Shown here in pieces: positions 4,567 through 62,819 of a stretch of 62,819 bases of DNA (position 1 is the stretch's first letter; each line of letters begins with the position of its first letter). Source of the DNA: a virus; the IMG/VR virus record IMGVR_UViG_3300025162_000007, positions 1-62,819 of that record; one strand, written 5' to 3'. A program made the translations under genes and the position numbers. The notes beneath the pieces are model-generated. The model made no database searches. It worked only from the letters and a program-made list of their open reading frames with translations, and was not told the origin of the DNA.

Positions 4567-6360
4567 ATGTACGGATTAACTTTTCTTGCTGCTAAAATAC
4601 TTGGTAAGTTAGATGCTAACCCAAATATAGAAGCAGATAAGTTAAACAAGATATTGCCTGAACTAGAAGTAAGTACTTGTAAAGAAATACTAGTGGCTTA
4701 TACTAGTACAGATAATAAGAAGAAGCAAGCAGAGCAATTAGAAAACATCTTGTATACTATCTTACCTAGATTAACAGAGCATTTATATTATGCTATGTCT
4801 ACCCAAATAAACTGTAGAAATAAAATAAATAAACAACTTGTTAAATCTTGGTGCTTAGATATAGAAGTATCAACTAAACTAGCAATAGAGTTTGATAAGT
4901 ATTTAACTAACACTAATTGTAGTGATAAAGATAAAGAAACACTACTAAGGTTATTTAGTGGGATACTACAAATTGCACTTAACAAAACGTATACGTGTAG
5001 TGAATGTAGTAGTAAAGTATCAGGTAAACCTTTCTTTGTATTTGATAAAGATACAACAGTATGTATGTGTTCAGAGTGTGCTTCTAAAAAGATAAAGTAT
5101 ACTTGTATACACTGTAACAATTCCTTTACATCTAACAATTCTAATCAGACTAAAGATGGTTTAGTTTGTCCTGACTGTATAAAAATATACTATAAAAAGT
5201 GTGAGTACTGTGGTGTATATGAAAAAAATGGATTAGTTAAATCACGAAAAGTTAATGTTGACTTAGGTAATGATGCAGTTAATAAGTTAATATGTGATAC
5301 CTGTGTTAAACTAAAGTTTACTAGTTGCTATAGTTGTGGCTGTCTAATAGAGAACGGCAGAGAAGTTACAACAGATGGTGGAAGACTTTGCCCTAGATGT
5401 GATGTAAGAAAACGCTTATATGGGAGTAGGACTGGGCTTACTACTAAAGTAGTAAAGCTTGGTAACACTTATACTGAGTGTAAAAGTAAACGTATCTTTG
5501 GTGTTGAGATAGAAACTAATATCTTAACAAGAGATAACAACACTGACTGGAGTAAAGTTAATGATGCTAGCATTGCAGCTAGAGAGTTTGTTAGTCCAAA
5601 ACTTAATGGTGATTTAGGTTTTGCTGATATAAAAAAGTTTCTAAGTGAGATAGATGCAACAGTAGATAAAGTTATAGTAAGAGAGATGGATAAAGTATGT
5701 GGACTTCATGTTCATGTTGATGGTAGTGACTTAACTATTGAAGATATAATAAAGTTATATCGAGCAGCTTGTCCACTACAGAATTTATTCTTTTGTCTTG
5801 TTAAGCCTGAACGTAGTAGTTGTAGACACTGTGTATTATTAAGTGATAGGTATGCTAAACTTAAAGATATACATGGCGTAGAGATGATACTATATGGACA
5901 CGGTGGTGAAGATGCAGCTAGAAGAAAGAAAGAAAAGTATAGTGGTGAACGTTATAACTGGCTTAATGTACACAGTTGGTTTTATCGTGGTAGTATAGAA
6001 ATGAGGCAGCATCATGGTACTCTTGACTATGATGAAATAGTTAATTGGATAAGTCTAATGACTTGCTTTGTTGACTGGGTAAAGACTACTTCTATAGAAG
6101 CAATAGATGAAGCTACTCTAAGTATTACTTCAGCTAACTCATTAAAGAATAGGTTAAGTAAGTTCCTAGAATTAGTAGCAAAGTTTAGTAACAAAGACGT
6201 AGCTAACTTTTATGCTGCACAGATTAAAAAGTTTTATGATATAGTTGTACCAAGTTATAATGTACAGCATATAAAAGTAGAAGTAGAAAAGGAACCAGTA
6301 GAGATAGAAGATATAGATGAAGAAGATGATGGGTATGATAATGATGATGATAATAATTAA
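4567..6360 (+). CDS. Amidoligase (glutamine synthetase-like fold) with N-terminal zinc-binding region
   Basis: 597 aa. About residues 310-490 match the Amidoligase_2 family, which joins a carboxylate to an amine using ATP: GVEIE at 312-316, EFVSP at 340-344, CGLHVHVD at 378-385, RYNWLNV at 462-468 and EMRQHHGTL at 478-486. Residues 144-278 carry at least seven CxxC-type pairs (144/147, 180/183, 201/204, 212/215, 243/246, 254/257, 275/278), suggesting several zinc-ribbon or treble-clef units that could bind protein or nucleic acid. The tail is strongly acidic. GGAGG lies 14 bases before ATG 4567, rather far. The next gene is a glutamine amidotransferase, so the two probably act together. The substrate is unknown: cell-wall peptide, protein or a small amine are all possible. 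Confidence 0.85.
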   Translation: MYGLTFLAAKILGKLDANPNIEADKLNKILPELEVSTCKEILVAYTSTDNKKKQAEQLENILYTILPRLTEHLYYAMSTQINCRNKINKQLVKSWCLDIEVSTKLAIEFDKYLTNTNCSDKDKETLLRLFSGILQIALNKTYTCSECSSKVSGKPFFVFDKDTTVCMCSECASKKIKYTCIHCNNSFTSNNSNQTKDGLVCPDCIKIYYKKCEYCGVYEKNGLVKSRKVNVDLGNDAVNKLICDTCVKLKFTSCYSCGCLIENGREVTTDGGRLCPRCDVRKRLYGSRTGLTTKVVKLGNTYTECKSKRIFGVEIETNILTRDNNTDWSKVNDASIAAREFVSPKLNGDLGFADIKKFLSEIDATVDKVIVREMDKVCGLHVHVDGSDLTIEDIIKLYRAACPLQNLFFCLVKPERSSCRHCVLLSDRYAKLKDIHGVEMILYGHGGEDAARRKKEKYSGERYNWLNVHSWFYRGSIEMRQHHGTLDYDEIVNWISLMTCFVDWVKTTSIEAIDEATLSITSANSLKNRLSKFLELVAKFSNKDVANFYAAQIKKFYDIVVPSYNVQHIKVEVEKEPVEIEDIDEEDDGYDNDDDNN

Positions 6361-6422
6361 ACTAAAGCTTTCACTAAGTACAGTAAAAGAATTAGAAATA
6401 CTAAAGGAGGTATTATAGAATA

Positions 6423-7631
6423 ATGTGTGGGATATTTGGAGCAGTAGGTAAGTATAGTCCTAATGATATAAGGTTACTTGCACTACTGAACATGAGTAGA
6501 GGAACAGATGCCACTGGATTTTACAATGGTAAGAAGTTACTTAAGGAAGCAGTAGATGCTAAAGACTTCTTACGTGACCACAGAGATTACTTTCTAGATA
6601 AGACACAGTATATTATGGGGCATACTAGACTTGGTACTCATGGTAGTAAACTTAAAGATGAAAATGCCCACCCGTTTATTGTAGGTACTATAACTGGAAC
6701 TCATAATGGTATGATTAATAATACCAAAGAGTTAAAAGAAAAGCATGGTGTAGACTATAAAGTAGATAGCCAATATATATTCTACTTACTTAACACTGGG
6801 ATTGATAAGTTAAATGAATTGTGGGGATACTATTGTCTTGCATATGTTGATAGTAAAAAACCTAAAGAGTTTAACTTACTTAAACACGATGGGCAATTAA
6901 GTATAGTTGAGTCTAATGGTGTACTATACTACTCCTCTAATGGTGATGATTTGTTTACGGTATTTGGAAAGCAAGCTAAAGTAAAAGACGTACCTACTGA
7001 TACTAAGTTGACTATAGATATAGATACACTAAAGATATACTCTACTAAGTTAATAGGACTTAACGGTAGATTTAAAGCTGGTACTACTTGTTGTGGTGAA
7101 ACTTATACTACTACTAAGACAGGAACTGGTAGGCATGGTGATAGCATTTATAACTTTAGAGATGATGAAGAGGATAGAGGAGGATACTGTGAAAGTGATT
7201 ATGACTATGAGAAAAGTCCTTATGGTTATTATTTTCATGGAGTGTTTCACCCTTATGCTAACACAGTATGGGATACTAATACTAAACGCTATACTAACTC
7301 AGTAATAGATAAAGAATTAAAAGCTATAGAAGCTGAAGCTAGTGTTGCTGAAAAGAAAGAAGAAGCTAAAGAAGCAGAGAAAGAAATAAAAAGAAACTTA
7401 AGTAGTGACTGTACAATTTGTGGTAGTCCTAGATTTATACAGGACTTAACTTTTATAGCGTGTGATGAAGGCTGGGGCAAGGCTGAGATGTGTGGTGAGT
7501 GCTGGGCTAAGTACATACGTGCAGGGTATAGTATAAGTGGTATGCTATTTAGTAGAGATAATGAAGTACCTATCGTAAAGAAAGTACCGCTTAAAATAGT
7601 AGGTGGTAAGTCTATTTGGGACGGTAAGTAG
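6423..7631 (+). CDS. Class II glutamine amidotransferase with C-terminal cysteine motif
   Basis: 402 aa. Starts MCGIFGA, giving the N-terminal nucleophile Cys2 after Met removal. GHTRLGTHG at 66-74, NAHPF at 81-85 and THNGMINN at 93-100 are the hallmarks of the Ntn-hydrolase glutaminase domain, which releases ammonia from glutamine. The C-terminal half has no PRPP, sugar-isomerase or asparagine synthetase domain. Instead it has a glycine/tyrosine-rich acidic linker, a charged helix, and cysteines near 330, 333, 347, 357 and 360 that may bind zinc. Strong AAAGGAGGT upstream. Immediately downstream of the amidoligase gene, so it probably feeds that enzyme or acts on the same substrate. Confidence 0.88.
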   Translation: MCGIFGAVGKYSPNDIRLLALLNMSRGTDATGFYNGKKLLKEAVDAKDFLRDHRDYFLDKTQYIMGHTRLGTHGSKLKDENAHPFIVGTITGTHNGMINNTKELKEKHGVDYKVDSQYIFYLLNTGIDKLNELWGYYCLAYVDSKKPKEFNLLKHDGQLSIVESNGVLYYSSNGDDLFTVFGKQAKVKDVPTDTKLTIDIDTLKIYSTKLIGLNGRFKAGTTCCGETYTTTKTGTGRHGDSIYNFRDDEEDRGGYCESDYDYEKSPYGYYFHGVFHPYANTVWDTNTKRYTNSVIDKELKAIEAEASVAEKKEEAKEAEKEIKRNLSSDCTICGSPRFIQDLTFIACDEGWGKAEMCGECWAKYIRAGYSISGMLFSRDNEVPIVKKVPLKIVGGKSIWDGK

Positions 7632-7632
7632 T

Positions 7633-7827
7633 ATGAGTAAAGATAAGCCAACTAATATCTTTGAATGCGAACACTATACTATTCCTTTACCAACTGCATT
7701 ACTTGTAGATGAAAAAGATAAATGGGAAGTATGCCTACAATATAGTCAAGTACAAGGACAACCAAGCTATGTTACAGGAGTATACATAAGTAAGCCTAGT
7801 GAGGAACAGTTCTATGGAGGTGCATAA
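7633..7827 (+). CDS. Hypothetical protein, 64 aa
   Basis: ATG 7633 lies one base after the amidotransferase stop, which suggests coupling; upstream in-frame starts lie inside that gene. A short all-beta-looking protein (ECEHYTIPLPTALLV, WEVCLQYSQVQ, YVTGVYISKP). No family recognised. Its place directly behind the amidoligase and amidotransferase makes it a candidate partner or substrate. Confidence 0.5.
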   Translation: MSKDKPTNIFECEHYTIPLPTALLVDEKDKWEVCLQYSQVQGQPSYVTGVYISKPSEEQFYGGA

Positions 7828-8294: not shown

Positions 8295-8561
8295 ATGATG
8301 ATACATGGTGTTGTATGCCCCAACTGTAAAGACTTTATATATAGCAGAACAAGACACGACTTTAGGACTTGCACTTGTGGTGATACCTCTATTGATGGTG
8401 GACAGACTGACTATATAAAGCTAAGTGCTAAAAACATGAAGGATATACAACACTTAACTATGGAGATAAAGACTACACTTGGAAAACTTTATGATGACTG
8501 GAACTTAAAATTAGATAAACTAGGACTTATACCTACTAAGACTATCAAAAGGGGAACTTGA
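8295..8561 (+). CDS. Zinc-ribbon-like protein, 88 aa
   Basis: Strong AGGAGG before ATG 8295 (a second ATG follows at 8298). CPNC at about residues 9-12 and CTCGD near 29-33 suggest a zinc-binding head, followed by a lysine-rich helix. It resembles small phage zinc proteins that read VVCPNCKDFIYSRTRHDFR; function unknown. Confidence 0.6.
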   Translation: MMIHGVVCPNCKDFIYSRTRHDFRTCTCGDTSIDGGQTDYIKLSAKNMKDIQHLTMEIKTTLGKLYDDWNLKLDKLGLIPTKTIKRGT

Positions 8562-8563
8562 CA

Positions 8564-8854
8564 ATGGTTACAAAGTGTGATACTATGAGTAGTGCAAGAC
8601 GTTTACTTAGGTGTAACTTGTATGACTTGATGCTAGAGATAGAAGACTTAATAGCGGACAACTTATCTGTCATTAGTAATGATGATAAGATAAAGTTACG
8701 TGCTGCTAATAGTCTACTAGCCAATGTATATGAGAGGCATACTGTAAAGTTAGATGCTAAGTTTAACAAAGAGAATAATATAGAGAGGTTTAAGTATGAT
8801 GAAAGCAAAGGTTTTATTAGACAGGGTATTAGTAAAGAAGGAAGTGGAGAGTAA
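8564..8854 (+). CDS. Hypothetical helical protein, 96 aa
   Basis: ATG 8564 is preferred, about ten bases after AGGGG; a TTG six bases upstream is also possible. A mainly alpha protein with two leucine-rich helices (ARRLLRCNLYDLMLEIEDLI and KLRAANSLLANVYERH). Its 3' end overlaps the GroES-like gene by 59 bases, unusually long for this genome. Confidence 0.55.
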   Translation: MVTKCDTMSSARRLLRCNLYDLMLEIEDLIADNLSVISNDDKIKLRAANSLLANVYERHTVKLDAKFNKENNIERFKYDESKGFIRQGISKEGSGE

Positions 8855-9071
8855 GACTACTAGTGGTGGTATCATTATACCTGATACTATCAGAAGTAAT
8901 AACTTTATTAAGGCTACTGTTATCACTTGTGGTAAAGATATACATGACATAATAGCTGGAGAAGTATTACTTATTACTAAGAATACTGGTATAGATATTT
9001 CAGTAGGAGAAGATACCCTTACCATACTTAGAGAAGGTGAAATACTTTGTAAGTTATATGAGGAGGAATAG
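8796..9071 (+). CDS. groES: GroES-like co-chaperonin
   Basis: 91 aa, close to the 90-100 aa of Cpn10. The start VLLDRVLVKKEVESKTTSGG is followed by IIIPDT, the mobile loop that binds GroEL; the rest follows the Cpn10 barrel (ATVITCGKDIHDIIAGEVLLI, LREGEILCKLY at the end). The family caps GroEL, and phages that carry it (T4 gp31 type) use it to fold the capsid protein. No GroEL is encoded here, so it would pair with the host's. Preceded by GAGAGG and nested in the end of the previous gene. Confidence 0.88.
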   Translation: MMKAKVLLDRVLVKKEVESKTTSGGIIIPDTIRSNNFIKATVITCGKDIHDIIAGEVLLITKNTGIDISVGEDTLTILREGEILCKLYEEE

Positions 9072-12902: not shown

Positions 12903-13394
12903 CTATATTATTTTATCACACAGTCCTAACTCTAATGCTTGGGCAGCAGTTAACCACACTTCAGGTTTACCCTTAATTAATTTACGCCAAAATGTCACAG
13001 ACTTTTTACTATTGTCTGCTAGTATTCTATAGTACTGTTCATCAAACTTACGTACTTGTTTAATCCAATCTTCCATTTCTGACATATCCATTTCATCAGT
13101 CACCTGTAGTTGACTTTCATGTATCATTAGCCATGCGTCTTTTTCCATGTGTCGCTTATCCCCACACACAAACATAGCAACTGCCTCTGAACATACGTGT
13201 CCAAAGGCAACTGTTGTTATTGGAACCTTACATAATCTTACTCTACCAGAGAAAGCAAGTCCTGCACCTATGTCCCCACCATCACTACTAATGTGTAGTC
13301 TTATAGGTTCACCTATCTTTTCTAACTGATTCATAATAGCATCAAACTCGCCAAACTTATTATCTACTTCTGACGCAAAAGTGAACTGCTGCAT
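12903..13394 (-). CDS. clpP: ClpP-like serine protease
   Basis: 163 aa, slightly shorter than bacterial ClpP. HISSDGGDIGAGLAF is the substrate-binding loop, HVCSEAVAMFVCG carries the nucleophile serine, WLMIHES the catalytic histidine and LTAAQALELGLCDKII the conserved end. ClpP-fold enzymes include the housekeeping protease and phage prohead proteases. Here it is the last gene of a leftward non-structural operon, far from the capsid genes, so a role in remodelling host or phage proteins is as likely as head maturation. No unfoldase partner is seen. GAGGT precedes ATG 13394. Confidence 0.8.
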   Translation of the reverse strand: MQQFTFASEVDNKFGEFDAIMNQLEKIGEPIRLHISSDGGDIGAGLAFSGRVRLCKVPITTVAFGHVCSEAVAMFVCGDKRHMEKDAWLMIHESQLQVTDEMDMSEMEDWIKQVRKFDEQYYRILADNSKKSVTFWRKLIKGKPEVWLTAAQALELGLCDKII

Positions 13395-15467: not shown

Positions 15468-17315
15468 TCAATCCACTTCATTTTGTTTATACCTTTTTCT
15501 TTGTCCTGCTTCTTTTTGTCTAGCCTTCCCCCATACACTACGAGGACGTAGATAACCAACAATACGTTCCCATATCTCAACTTGTGCATCACAACAAGGA
15601 CTAGTTTTAAATATTCCTACAACATTTTCACCACACTTAGTACATCTTGATATACCATAGTTAATTGCTTGGTAAATAACTCCTTGTTTAGCACTATATT
15701 CTATAAGTCTTTTCATCTGTTTAGCTGATGTAAGTGTTTCATCTAAATTAATATGGAGTATCCCTCCTCCTTGAGTAAGTTTATCTAATTTACCTTGTAC
15801 TTTTATTCTGTCTTTTATATCTGCGTTAACTGAAAGAGGAAGATATTGATTACTTAATATTTCATACTTAGTATTAAACTTAAAGTTGGTTTTGTTCGCT
15901 AAAGTAACTCCTAATGATTCAGCAGGTACTTGTTCTAGATTAAACATAACTTTAGTAAAAGTATGTGTATCAGTATTCCATTTATTTATAGTATTAAGTA
16001 TTTTTGCAGCTAACTCAGTACCTTCTTTAGTTACTATATCTGAACCTAATACTTCTATTGCTTCATTAAGTCCTACAAATCCTATAGTACAGAATTGTCT
16101 ATCAAGTGAAGCCCAACCTTTACTATATAATGGATGTTTTCCTGCTGATACAGCTACCTCTAGCATACGCCTGTGAGCTACTAATATATCTACAGCTAAA
16201 TCATAAGTATGTTTTAATTTATTAAAAAAATCTACATCATCTCTAGCTTCAAGTGCTGCCATTACTAGATTAAGTACTACGACACGAGTGCTGCCAACAG
16301 AAATAGAAGGGTTGCCAAGAGTAGAAGAAAATAATTTGGTGTCACTAATAAGACGACAACAACTACTAAGATTTCCAATATCCCCAGTATAGATGTTGAA
16401 TGTTCCACGTTTATAATTGACTTCAGACAACCAATTAAGAAACTCCTCATCTTGTATCTTATCTTCCTTTTTGTACATAGAAGCAGTTAACACTGGAAAA
16501 GTAAGTAACTGTTCAGTTTCATTCATTTTTATAAAGTGCTCGCTAAACCATTGCTGTAGTTTATTAACGCCTTTTAAGTCTACCTTACTACCATCAGGAT
16601 ATGTAACATGACTAAATAAATCTTTCATAAAGTATTTATCATATATGGTTAAGTTAACAAATGCTGATTGACTGGCACGAAATGGAAAGTTAAAGCTGTA
16701 TACTAACTTCTGAAATAATTGCTCTACTTCTTCAGTAGCTTCTGCATAATAATTAACTCCATAATCATTTCTTAAGTACCAGTCTAAGTATATAAATAAA
16801 TCTCCATAACTTACTGCACCTGCTTGAGAGTTGCTAATGTATGCTGTTGTCTGTATTAGTATATCAATAAATGACTGAGCGTGTTTTGGGGGTTTTACTT
16901 TAAGCCCTACAATAAAAGGCATTCCTTCAAAAACCAGTGGTTGTAAACTATAACTATAACAGTAACTACTAAACCAACGTGTTAAGTCACAAACATATAA
17001 GTTACCTTCTTTAATAGCGGTATAGTGTTGTACTCCAATTTGATTACGAATGTAATCATAAGCTGCTTTCTTAAACATTGCTTTTGGTGCTTCACTATAG
17101 TAACTTATAACGGAAGTATCTACTACATTTGCATTATCGTCTATGGTCTGATGACTTGTTACTGCTGTTCCTATAAACTTATCATAGTATTTTAATCCAT
17201 CTACCTTATCTTCTGTTAAACCATCTGTTGTTTTATAAAACATTTCCCTTCTAAATCTCTGTGCTTCTGTTAAAAATGCTACGTTACGTGTCTTTACTTC
17301 TACCACTTTATCCAT
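15468..17315 (-). CDS. nrdD: Anaerobic (class III) ribonucleotide reductase, large subunit
   Basis: 615 aa, the size of T4 NrdD and without an ATP-cone. It reduces ribonucleoside triphosphates using a glycyl radical made by NrdG. Visible signatures: SSCCRLISD with the candidate active-site cysteine, a GSTRVVVLNL core strand, CTKCGEN...SPCCDAQ (zinc site near the C-terminus) and RIVGYLRP with the radical glycine. The radical is destroyed by oxygen, so it implies infection under anoxic conditions. It overlaps nrdG by 16 bases; AAGGGG precedes the start. Confidence 0.93.
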   Translation of the reverse strand: MDKVVEVKTRNVAFLTEAQRFRREMFYKTTDGLTEDKVDGLKYYDKFIGTAVTSHQTIDDNANVVDTSVISYYSEAPKAMFKKAAYDYIRNQIGVQHYTAIKEGNLYVCDLTRWFSSYCYSYSLQPLVFEGMPFIVGLKVKPPKHAQSFIDILIQTTAYISNSQAGAVSYGDLFIYLDWYLRNDYGVNYYAEATEEVEQLFQKLVYSFNFPFRASQSAFVNLTIYDKYFMKDLFSHVTYPDGSKVDLKGVNKLQQWFSEHFIKMNETEQLLTFPVLTASMYKKEDKIQDEEFLNWLSEVNYKRGTFNIYTGDIGNLSSCCRLISDTKLFSSTLGNPSISVGSTRVVVLNLVMAALEARDDVDFFNKLKHTYDLAVDILVAHRRMLEVAVSAGKHPLYSKGWASLDRQFCTIGFVGLNEAIEVLGSDIVTKEGTELAAKILNTINKWNTDTHTFTKVMFNLEQVPAESLGVTLANKTNFKFNTKYEILSNQYLPLSVNADIKDRIKVQGKLDKLTQGGGILHINLDETLTSAKQMKRLIEYSAKQGVIYQAINYGISRCTKCGENVVGIFKTSPCCDAQVEIWERIVGYLRPRSVWGKARQKEAGQRKRYKQNEVD

Positions 17316-17776
17316 TCCCCTTTCTCCTTTGTGTAATAGTTTTGATTACTTGACGCTAGAAATCCACCTGCGTTTAACTCAGGGATAAACTTACCTGTTT
17401 TAAGCATGTCTATTTTATCTAATATACTACTTGGTACCTCCTCCTTTTCGTATGCTGTGTATAAGCATACACTTAACTTTAACTTTCTTACTTCATCAAT
17501 AAGCTGCTCTAGTTTCTTATTGTCCTGCATCAGTGGCTCTCCCCCCATTAAGCACACTGTATCTATTAGCTCATCATATGTAATTAGAGTGTTGATGATA
17601 TCTGTTAAGCTTGTTTCTTTATCTGGTTTATAAGTATGAAGGTTTGGGTTATGACAGTAACTACATTTCATTATACACCCATTAAAGAATATAGTAGCTG
17701 ATACATGGTTAGGTACATCTATAAAGCTTACTTGTACATTCTCAATACTAAGTGGCTTACCTTTTAATTCATTCAT
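17300..17776 (-). CDS. nrdG: Anaerobic ribonucleotide reductase activase (radical SAM)
   Basis: 158 aa. CIMKCSYCHN (C-x3-C-x2-C) binds the 4Fe-4S cluster that cleaves S-adenosylmethionine and installs the glycyl radical on NrdD. VSFIDVPNHVSATIFFNG before it and MGGEPLM after it are standard for this family. Start at ATG 17776 (TAATG overlap with the resolvase stop) is chosen because GAGGAGAG lies just upstream; a longer in-frame start at 17797 has no site. Confidence 0.93.
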   Translation of the reverse strand: MNELKGKPLSIENVQVSFIDVPNHVSATIFFNGCIMKCSYCHNPNLHTYKPDKETSLTDIINTLITYDELIDTVCLMGGEPLMQDNKKLEQLIDEVRKLKLSVCLYTAYEKEEVPSSILDKIDMLKTGKFIPELNAGGFLASSNQNYYTKEKGEWIKW

Positions 17777-18645
17777 TATACTCTCCTCTTGATACATATA
17801 TTATCTATACTTTTATATAACTTTCTATACTCGCCTAGTCTTTGTCGCATCTTTGCTAATGCTTGCATCATGCATGCATATCTTCTTCTAATCTTTTTAT
17901 CCTTAGCTACTGGATGAGTACTTAAAAATACTTCTATCTCGTGTACTGCTTTACACATATTAGCTACTGCTTCTTTTACTTCTGTGTTTCTTTTTAGAGG
18001 ACTTATTTTGTTTCTGTTTGCCTTGCTTTGAAAATGTGTTAAAAAAAAATCTACTTCATGAGTTAGTATACGTCTACCAAACTCTGCTAATAGAAGTGAA
18101 TCAACACGTCCATCTTTAAGTCCACCTTTAGGGCCTGTAAAATACTTTATCATTGATGGAAATAACTCTACTGCTTTATCTAAGTAAACATGTTTACCTT
18201 TTTCTTTTCTATCCTTTCCACACATTCCATTAACCCAGGATTGTGGAGTTATAAAAAAAGTGTCCACTAACATATCATGTTCCTTAGCCAGTAACTTAAC
18301 TTCATCAGCTAGACATTCTAAATATCCAAACGTTCTACCAAAACTAAACATACTACATACACCTTGCTTTGGCATTGCATGTACTTCTTCTATAAAGATA
18401 TAAGTAGGATACTTATAATTTATAAAGGTATTCTCACATATCCAAAGAGTTAACTCCTCACCATCTATTATTCCAGAGCGTTGACCTAGTGGGATATCTA
18501 ATATGTTTGCTGCTATTACCCTACCTTCTCTTACATTAAGTACTGATACTGCACCATACTTTCCTACGTCTATTCCTACTACATTAAAAGTAGTAATAGG
18601 AACTTTATTAACTTGTGTTTGTTTAGGCATTCCTGCTTTCATCAT
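17776..18645 (-). CDS. RuvC-like Holliday junction resolvase
   Basis: 289 aa. NVVGIDVGKYGAVSVLN is the first acidic strand of the RuvC/RNase H fold, IFIEEVHAMPKQG the second with glutamate, and LKDGRVDSLLLAEFGRR the C-terminal aspartates. The enzyme would resolve branched DNA before packaging. A basic C-terminal extension of about 80 residues with YACMMQALAKMRQRL is longer than in RuvC. It lies between the primase and nrdG, coupled to both. Confidence 0.8.
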   Translation of the reverse strand: MMKAGMPKQTQVNKVPITTFNVVGIDVGKYGAVSVLNVREGRVIAANILDIPLGQRSGIIDGEELTLWICENTFINYKYPTYIFIEEVHAMPKQGVCSMFSFGRTFGYLECLADEVKLLAKEHDMLVDTFFITPQSWVNGMCGKDRKEKGKHVYLDKAVELFPSMIKYFTGPKGGLKDGRVDSLLLAEFGRRILTHEVDFFLTHFQSKANRNKISPLKRNTEVKEAVANMCKAVHEIEVFLSTHPVAKDKKIRRRYACMMQALAKMRQRLGEYRKLYKSIDNICIKRRV

Positions 18646-59678: not shown

Positions 59679-59723
59679 ATGACTACTAAGGCATTCATGG
59701 AGTACCATAAATGACTACTAAGG
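59675..59723 (+). repeat. 17-base duplication around the speD start
   Basis: ATAAATGACTACTAAGG occurs at 59675-59691 and again at 59707-59723. Both copies contain an ATG with the same first four codons; the first opens an 11-codon ORF that ends just before the second. The downstream ATG (59711) belongs to speD. Slippage duplication, or a tiny upstream leader peptide. Confidence 0.75.
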
Positions 59724-60061
59724 GAGAGTTAACAATTTGTGATATATGGTTGCACTCAGGGCCTATTAAAACCTTTGATAAGTTTATAGAAGGTGCAGTT
59801 AATAAAGCTATAGCAACCTCAAACTGTAAAGTAATGAACAAGTTAAAATATAACTTCAATCCATACGGAGTTACTGCGGTGTATATCCTAAGCGCCTCCC
59901 ACTTAGGATATCACACCTACCCTGAACACAGTTATGTCAGTATAGACTGTTATACTTGTGAAGGTGAAGGGAGTAGTAAGAGAGTAGTTACTAATATTAT
60001 CAATGAGTTAAAGAAGCACATAAAGAAAACTAAGTTACGAACAATTAGGAGGGGAGTATGA
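59711..60061 (+). CDS. speD: S-adenosylmethionine decarboxylase homologue (SpeD family)
   Basis: 116 aa. YNFNPYGVTAVYILSASHLG, then YHTYPEHSYVSIDCYTCEG aligns with the core of bacterial SpeD. Ser63 is the residue that becomes pyruvoyl, and His68 and Cys83 are the processing and catalytic residues, at the same numbers as in the Thermotoga enzyme. The residue before Ser63 is Ala rather than the usual Glu, so self-cleavage or substrate could differ. SpeD makes decarboxylated SAM for spermidine; some phage and CPR homologues have become arginine or ornithine decarboxylases. No SpeE follows. Confidence 0.85.
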   Translation: MTTKGELTICDIWLHSGPIKTFDKFIEGAVNKAIATSNCKVMNKLKYNFNPYGVTAVYILSASHLGYHTYPEHSYVSIDCYTCEGEGSSKRVVTNIINELKKHIKKTKLRTIRRGV

Positions 60062-62692: not shown

Positions 62693-62819
62693 TGCAAACT
62701 AGCTAATGCTGATAGTAAACTATCAAGACTTGAGTACAAGTGTAATCTTTACAATTTACTGTTGTAAGTTTTACAAAACTGACGTGTATGCAAGAAGCAT
62801 GCCAAGTGCAACAGAAAAA
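62693..62819. repeat. Terminal direct repeat, right copy
   Basis: Exact copy of bases 1-127. See the left copy. It marks the point where a circular or circularly permuted genome was opened. Confidence 0.9.

Follow-up and report, generated by a model that had tools for sequence, protein, structure and literature searches.

A predicted Amidoligase_2 ligase and a class II glutaminase with matching zinc-module add-ons in the early region of a virus genome

Genome and gene order

The window, i.e. the whole stretch of DNA analysed here, is a virus genome of 62,819 bases with a G+C content of 34%. Its first 127 bases recur exactly at its end as a direct terminal repeat (1-127 and 62693-62819), so the genome appears complete, and the assembly probably represents a full-length or circular molecule. 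When viral contigs were scanned with the amidoligase, the glutaminase and the terminase one protein at a time, this same virus was the only one retrieved; record IMGVR_UViG_3300009502_000082 is the same virus, with 1 mismatch across 14.4 kb. The genome encodes a P22-type portal, a family A DNA polymerase and an anaerobic ribonucleotide reductase, while its terminase is a distant relative of the terminases of LUZ24-like and P22-like phages. The reductase NrdD and its radical-SAM activase lie at 15468-17797, which suggests a host that is probably oxygen-free in lifestyle. A phage-encoded ClpP-like protease (12903-13394, 1.2e-18) and an S-adenosylmethionine decarboxylase, a polyamine gene (59711-60061, 4.3e-20), were also found. 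Four successive ORFs of about 107 aa at 989-2268, with a Cys-rich mid-region and similar ends ('LxILDExK'), resemble a tandem family that phmmer left unjoined at 1e-4.

The early region carries, on the + strand and with a helicase downstream, the gene of an Amidoligase_2-family ligase of 597 aa (4567-6360), followed by that of a class II (Ntn) glutamine amidotransferase of 402 aa (6423-7631). Gene spacing is tight between 6423 and 8291, where most genes have a clear ribosome-binding site. A DUF7695 zinc protein (8295-8561, 1.3e-12) belongs to the same operon, and a GroES-like co-chaperonin is encoded at 8796-9071 (Cpn10, 1.3e-11).

The operon neighbour of the glutaminase is a 64-aa ORF (7633-7827, + strand) that starts 1 nt past the glutaminase stop. 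An earlier reading made from the sequence alone had placed this gene directly after the glutaminase, which is correct, and had treated it as a possible conserved unit with the pair, which did not hold: a search of 50,697 phage records (E up to 10) was negative, no relative occurred in about 160 related loci, and Pfam gave no match. Without relatives anywhere searched, the ORF was dismissed as a RiPP precursor, as a tag and as a partner conserved with the pair. Its length of 64 aa and a GGA at the end of its product had raised the idea of a Pup-like role, which was likewise rejected, as the product neither resembles Pup nor is conserved. Eleven relatives encode an ORF family of about 104 aa, located between the glutaminase and a second amidoligase or overlapping the glutaminase end, to which the 64-aa ORF of the window is unrelated.

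The two enzymes and their cysteine-rich modules

The amidoligase matches PF12224 with 69.7 bits (E=4.5e-19, HMM cut-off 22) and phrog_2443 with E=1.4e-22. Its catalytic core (aa 309-507, 5491-6087) contains GxExE (GVEIE), DxS, CGxHxH (CGLHVH), R416, R462, N467, E478-x-R480 and W494, all of which are invariant or nearly so in 42 relatives. The core model, with pLDDT mostly >85 and weaker around aa 430-460, matches YbdK, plant glutamate-cysteine ligase, GmaS (gamma-glutamylmethylamide synthetase), Dop and glutamine synthetase, and on the sequence level no real relative and no PafA match was found among PDB chains. Based on these results the protein is a predicted GS-fold Amidoligase_2 ligase with an intact active site, and the family assignment and motifs of the sequence-only reading are borne out. 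In front of the core, aa 1-137 (4567-4977) form a helical region that is poorly predicted by AlphaFold2 (mostly pLDDT <60).

Between this region and the core lies an array of zinc modules (aa 144-278, 4996-5400). The N-terminal 311 aa contain 23 Cys and eight CxxC pairs, where about seven had been noticed before, so that the array stood and its count was corrected. In 20,000 shuffles of the N-terminus the mean was 1.6 pairs and eight were never reached. The eight pairs form four CxxC...CxxC units with a spacing of 24-12-21-11-31-11-21, and an alternation of about 11 and about 21 residues is seen in most zinc-array amidoligases. The array is modelled with a pLDDT of about 70-90 (aa 175-285). 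Against the LIM HMM (PF00412), the window array gives no match and 3 of 42 relatives do (best 5.5e-6, partial model coverage only); judged from sequence, the array may weakly be called LIM-like rather than resembling known DNA-binding fingers. The best viral fold match of the amidoligase, BFVD A0A6J7X2B6, is named 'LIM domain containing protein', and this architecture is therefore already present in databases. No paper linking amidoligase and LIM was found in the literature covered, which lies outside the key 2009 paper of Iyer et al.

The glutaminase matches PF13522 (5.8e-12) and phrog_4736 (4.5e-28). Across 34 relatives there is no variation at M1-C2, R26, H67, R69, H83-P84, H94-N95-G96 or D115, and the protein has a complete predicted class II catalytic set. 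The glutaminase domain (aa 1-210, nucleophile Cys2, 6423-7052) is predicted with high confidence (pLDDT mostly >90), and Foldseek matches it to E. coli GlmS (2j6h, 2.1e-14; 1xff, 4.0e-14) and to the glutaminase domain of PurF. The full Ntn glutaminase with Cys2 that had been read from the letters is thus confirmed, and so is its lack of a synthase domain: neither the Pfam search nor the model shows one as in GlmS, PurF or AsnB. Beyond the glutaminase domain the chain has only a disordered linker, a predicted long helix (aa 292-325, 7296-7397) and, joined by this helix, a C-terminal Cys4 zinc-ribbon-like module (CTIC...CGEC, aa 330-360, 7410-7502; pLDDT about 55-71). This module accounts for the cysteine cluster noticed earlier, with CxxC pairs at residues 330 and 357, and Cys tails recur in relatives.

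The pair in other genomes

The same pair was found in Arthrobacter phages (Kharcho, Laroye), LUZ24-like phages, a fecal phage and a Manatee Spring phage, and it has been published for LUZ24-like, tf, RIO-1-like and OM43 phages, with a predicted cell-wall role. The pair itself is therefore not new, and the linkage of both genes, which the sequence-only reading had proposed, recurs as adjacency in relatives. None of the observations that reading had named as speaking against it was made, these being no Amidoligase_2 match, loss of ATP-binding or glutaminase residues and no conserved linkage. Phage amidoligase/class II glutaminase cassettes were reportedly also the subject of a prediction by Iyer et al. 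in 2009.

The 150 loci obtained from two profile scans of viral contigs were clustered at 60% identity, and an amidoligase was counted as zinc-array type when three or more CxxC pairs precede its core. A glutaminase adjoins the amidoligase in 21 of 23 zinc-array groups versus 26 of the 78 remaining groups (Fisher 6e-7); a CxxC tail is present on this neighbour in 17 of these 21 cases versus 2 of the 26 (Fisher 4e-7), p-values that are overstated since the correlation comes from few independent lineages and shared ancestry is ignored. These lineages are the window, L163, L122 and one large clade, and the correlation fails in L008, L013 and L099. By a quick tree, 3 changes explain the distribution of the arrays, compared to 18.4 with shuffled labels, so that they sit in few lineages; on this tree the window groups with L013 (support 84), apart from the large array clade. 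The matched zinc add-ons on both enzymes are an unexpected, recurrent variant of the known phage pair.

Contig CAIJHQ010000059.1 (L163), from an Omnitrophica MAG, has a zinc-array amidoligase and a Cys-tailed glutaminase as in the window. RadC and a type IV coupling protein seem to be encoded next to the pair, which makes this locus probably a mobile element, by its looks a conjugative one. Six loci (L052, L060, L062, L064, L095 and L096) have two distinct zinc-array amidoligases flanking one glutaminase; a conserved 92-119-aa ORF lies between the flanking amidoligases and is also kept in several loci with one visible amidoligase. The glutaminase-linked amidoligases of the L014-L089 group (e.g. 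L015:3491-4816) have a CxxC-free N-terminus made of an acidic, aromatic repeat, which may be a variant of the array that lacks zinc.

The cassettes of LUZ24-like, RIO-1-like, OM43 and Arthrobacter phages resemble the window in having PF12224 and PF13522 genes adjacent or nearly so in the early or replication region, and the LUZ24-like glutaminase has a similar Cys4 tail. Unlike in the window, however, their amidoligases have no zinc array. They usually also include a cyclotransferase, and the LUZ24-like cassettes a COOH-NH2 ligase and an ATP-grasp protein, none of which was found in the window: there is no cyclotransferase in the complete genome by PF06094 or PF13772 (up to E=10) or by motif, there is no HMM match for the COOH-NH2 ligase (PF14395), and a single-sequence search, as opposed to a family HMM, with the LUZ24-like ATP-grasp protein found nothing related. 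The zinc-array amidoligases of uncultivated phages (e.g. L027, L062, L097, MW202637) share the array spacing and ligase core and mostly have a Cys-tailed glutaminase partner. Their identity to the window is low, many of the loci have two amidoligases and the ORF of roughly 104 aa, and a divergent cyclotransferase lies about 6-8 kb off, unlike in the window.

Of 63 further phage or viral records with an amidoligase, 46 (14/21 and 32/42) have the gamma-glutamyl cyclotransferase PF06094, versus 0 of 13 phages without PF12224. Among array-bearing records, 11 of 17 have it, oriented divergently in ten; in nine of these ten it is located 6.0-8.0 kb upstream of the glutaminase, and in the tenth (G002) the distance is measurable only across the contig end. 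This frequency points to gamma-glutamyl or glutamate chemistry, an argument that is borrowed from the relatives, as the window has no PF06094 gene. The pair would be a minimal two-gene form of the early-region amidoligase/class II glutaminase/gamma-glutamyl cyclotransferase accessory function.

Proposed function of the pair

With slightly better than even confidence, the pair is predicted to be a two-part, glutamine-dependent amidating ligase. We infer that the Ntn enzyme would split glutamine via its Cys2 nucleophile, freeing ammonia that would be handed to the GS-fold amidoligase; with ATP, the latter would convert a carboxylate via an acyl phosphate to an amide. The carboxylate would probably be of the glutamate type and be carried by a peptide or protein. 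That ammonia from the glutaminase could supply the amidoligase had been suggested before, and this is supported by the HMMs, the conservation, the fold matches and the recurrent adjacency. However, the 402-aa glutaminase could also work by itself or together with an enzyme of the host.

The Cys4 tail and the zinc array would act mainly as protein-protein modules that dock both enzymes for ammonia handover, possibly aiding substrate recruitment as well. This docking reading, in which the zinc modules may hold amidoligase and glutaminase together, fits because zinc parts co-occur on both proteins. The earlier proposal that they target a protein or nucleic acid stays as one option; the arrays track the zinc tail of the partner, and docking fits at least equally well. 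In MurT, the interface to GatD is formed in part by a zinc-ribbon-like insertion rich in Cys, and a quadruple Cys mutant affects GatD association (PMC6085368). MurT/GatD thus has a zinc-ribbon-like part at its interface and, as predicted for the window, performs a two-protein glutamine-dependent amidation, but with a Mur-ligase fold and a class I glutaminase, and it is not homologous to the window pair.

As the substrate of the two-part ligase, a peptidoglycan precursor and a host or phage protein are about equally possible. For the cell wall, it is conceivable, if doubtful, that the pair amidates the D-iGlu or diaminopimelate carboxyl of peptidoglycan precursors, resulting in a superinfection block or altered lysis. 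A cell-wall role was predicted for homologous cassettes of phiEco32, LUZ24-like and RIO-1-like phages (PMC5498523; PMC10580990), a prediction from context only, and MurT/GatD, a close functional analogue, amidates lipid II (PMC6085368). Against this, the cyclotransferase and COOH-NH2 ligase of those cassettes are absent here by HMM, their ATP-grasp relative was not found, and a membrane-targeting part was not noticed.

Protein modification is put forward tentatively as well: the array would select a host or phage protein, of which a Glu or C-terminal carboxyl would be amidated or joined to an amine. The pupylation enzymes PafA and Dop, which link peptides to proteins, share the glutamine-synthetase-type fold with the window ligase and serve, with tubulin-type ligases, as conceptual analogues. 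The early-region location, the weak LIM similarity of the arrays and the many relatives in which two amidoligase paralogues surround one glutaminase, with the small conserved ORF between, are consistent with this reading. However, the window holds no conserved substrate candidate, its 64-aa ORF being without relatives, and the arrays may merely dock the glutaminase. It is rather unlikely that the pair represents a separate class of zinc-scaffolded amidating machines of phages and mobile elements, in which a complex built from the LIM-like array and the matching glutaminase tail would amidate a specific host or phage protein and not the cell wall.

A role as nitrogen-metabolism helper, by which the pair would increase the infected cell's glutamate, glutamine or glutathione-type metabolites, seems improbable. 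The suggestion was made for a Planctomycetes phage that encodes a glutathione synthase and a cyclotransferase besides glutaminase and amidoligase, although the growth effect described there was not tied to these genes (PMC10945688). It would also leave the zinc arrays unexplained.

In gat-QueC systems a class II glutaminase serves phage DNA modification. A comparable modification of nucleotides or DNA bases with glutamine nitrogen, as in the glutaminase-QueC phage fusions, is very improbable here even though some relatives adjoin recombination genes and a DNA methylase, since carboxylates are the targets of GS-fold amidoligases and QueC was found neither in the window nor in 21 other viral or phage records, for which reason the QueC-type was rejected for these phages.

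Sequence databases contain phage amidoligases in large number, but in the literature covered neither a substrate nor any biochemistry of a phage Amidoligase_2 protein was found. The cyclotransferase, frequent in amidoligase records and missing in the controls, narrows the likely chemistry. For the two-part ligase, the matched zinc modules predict a stable amidoligase-glutaminase complex, which would offer a handle for purification and substrate search.
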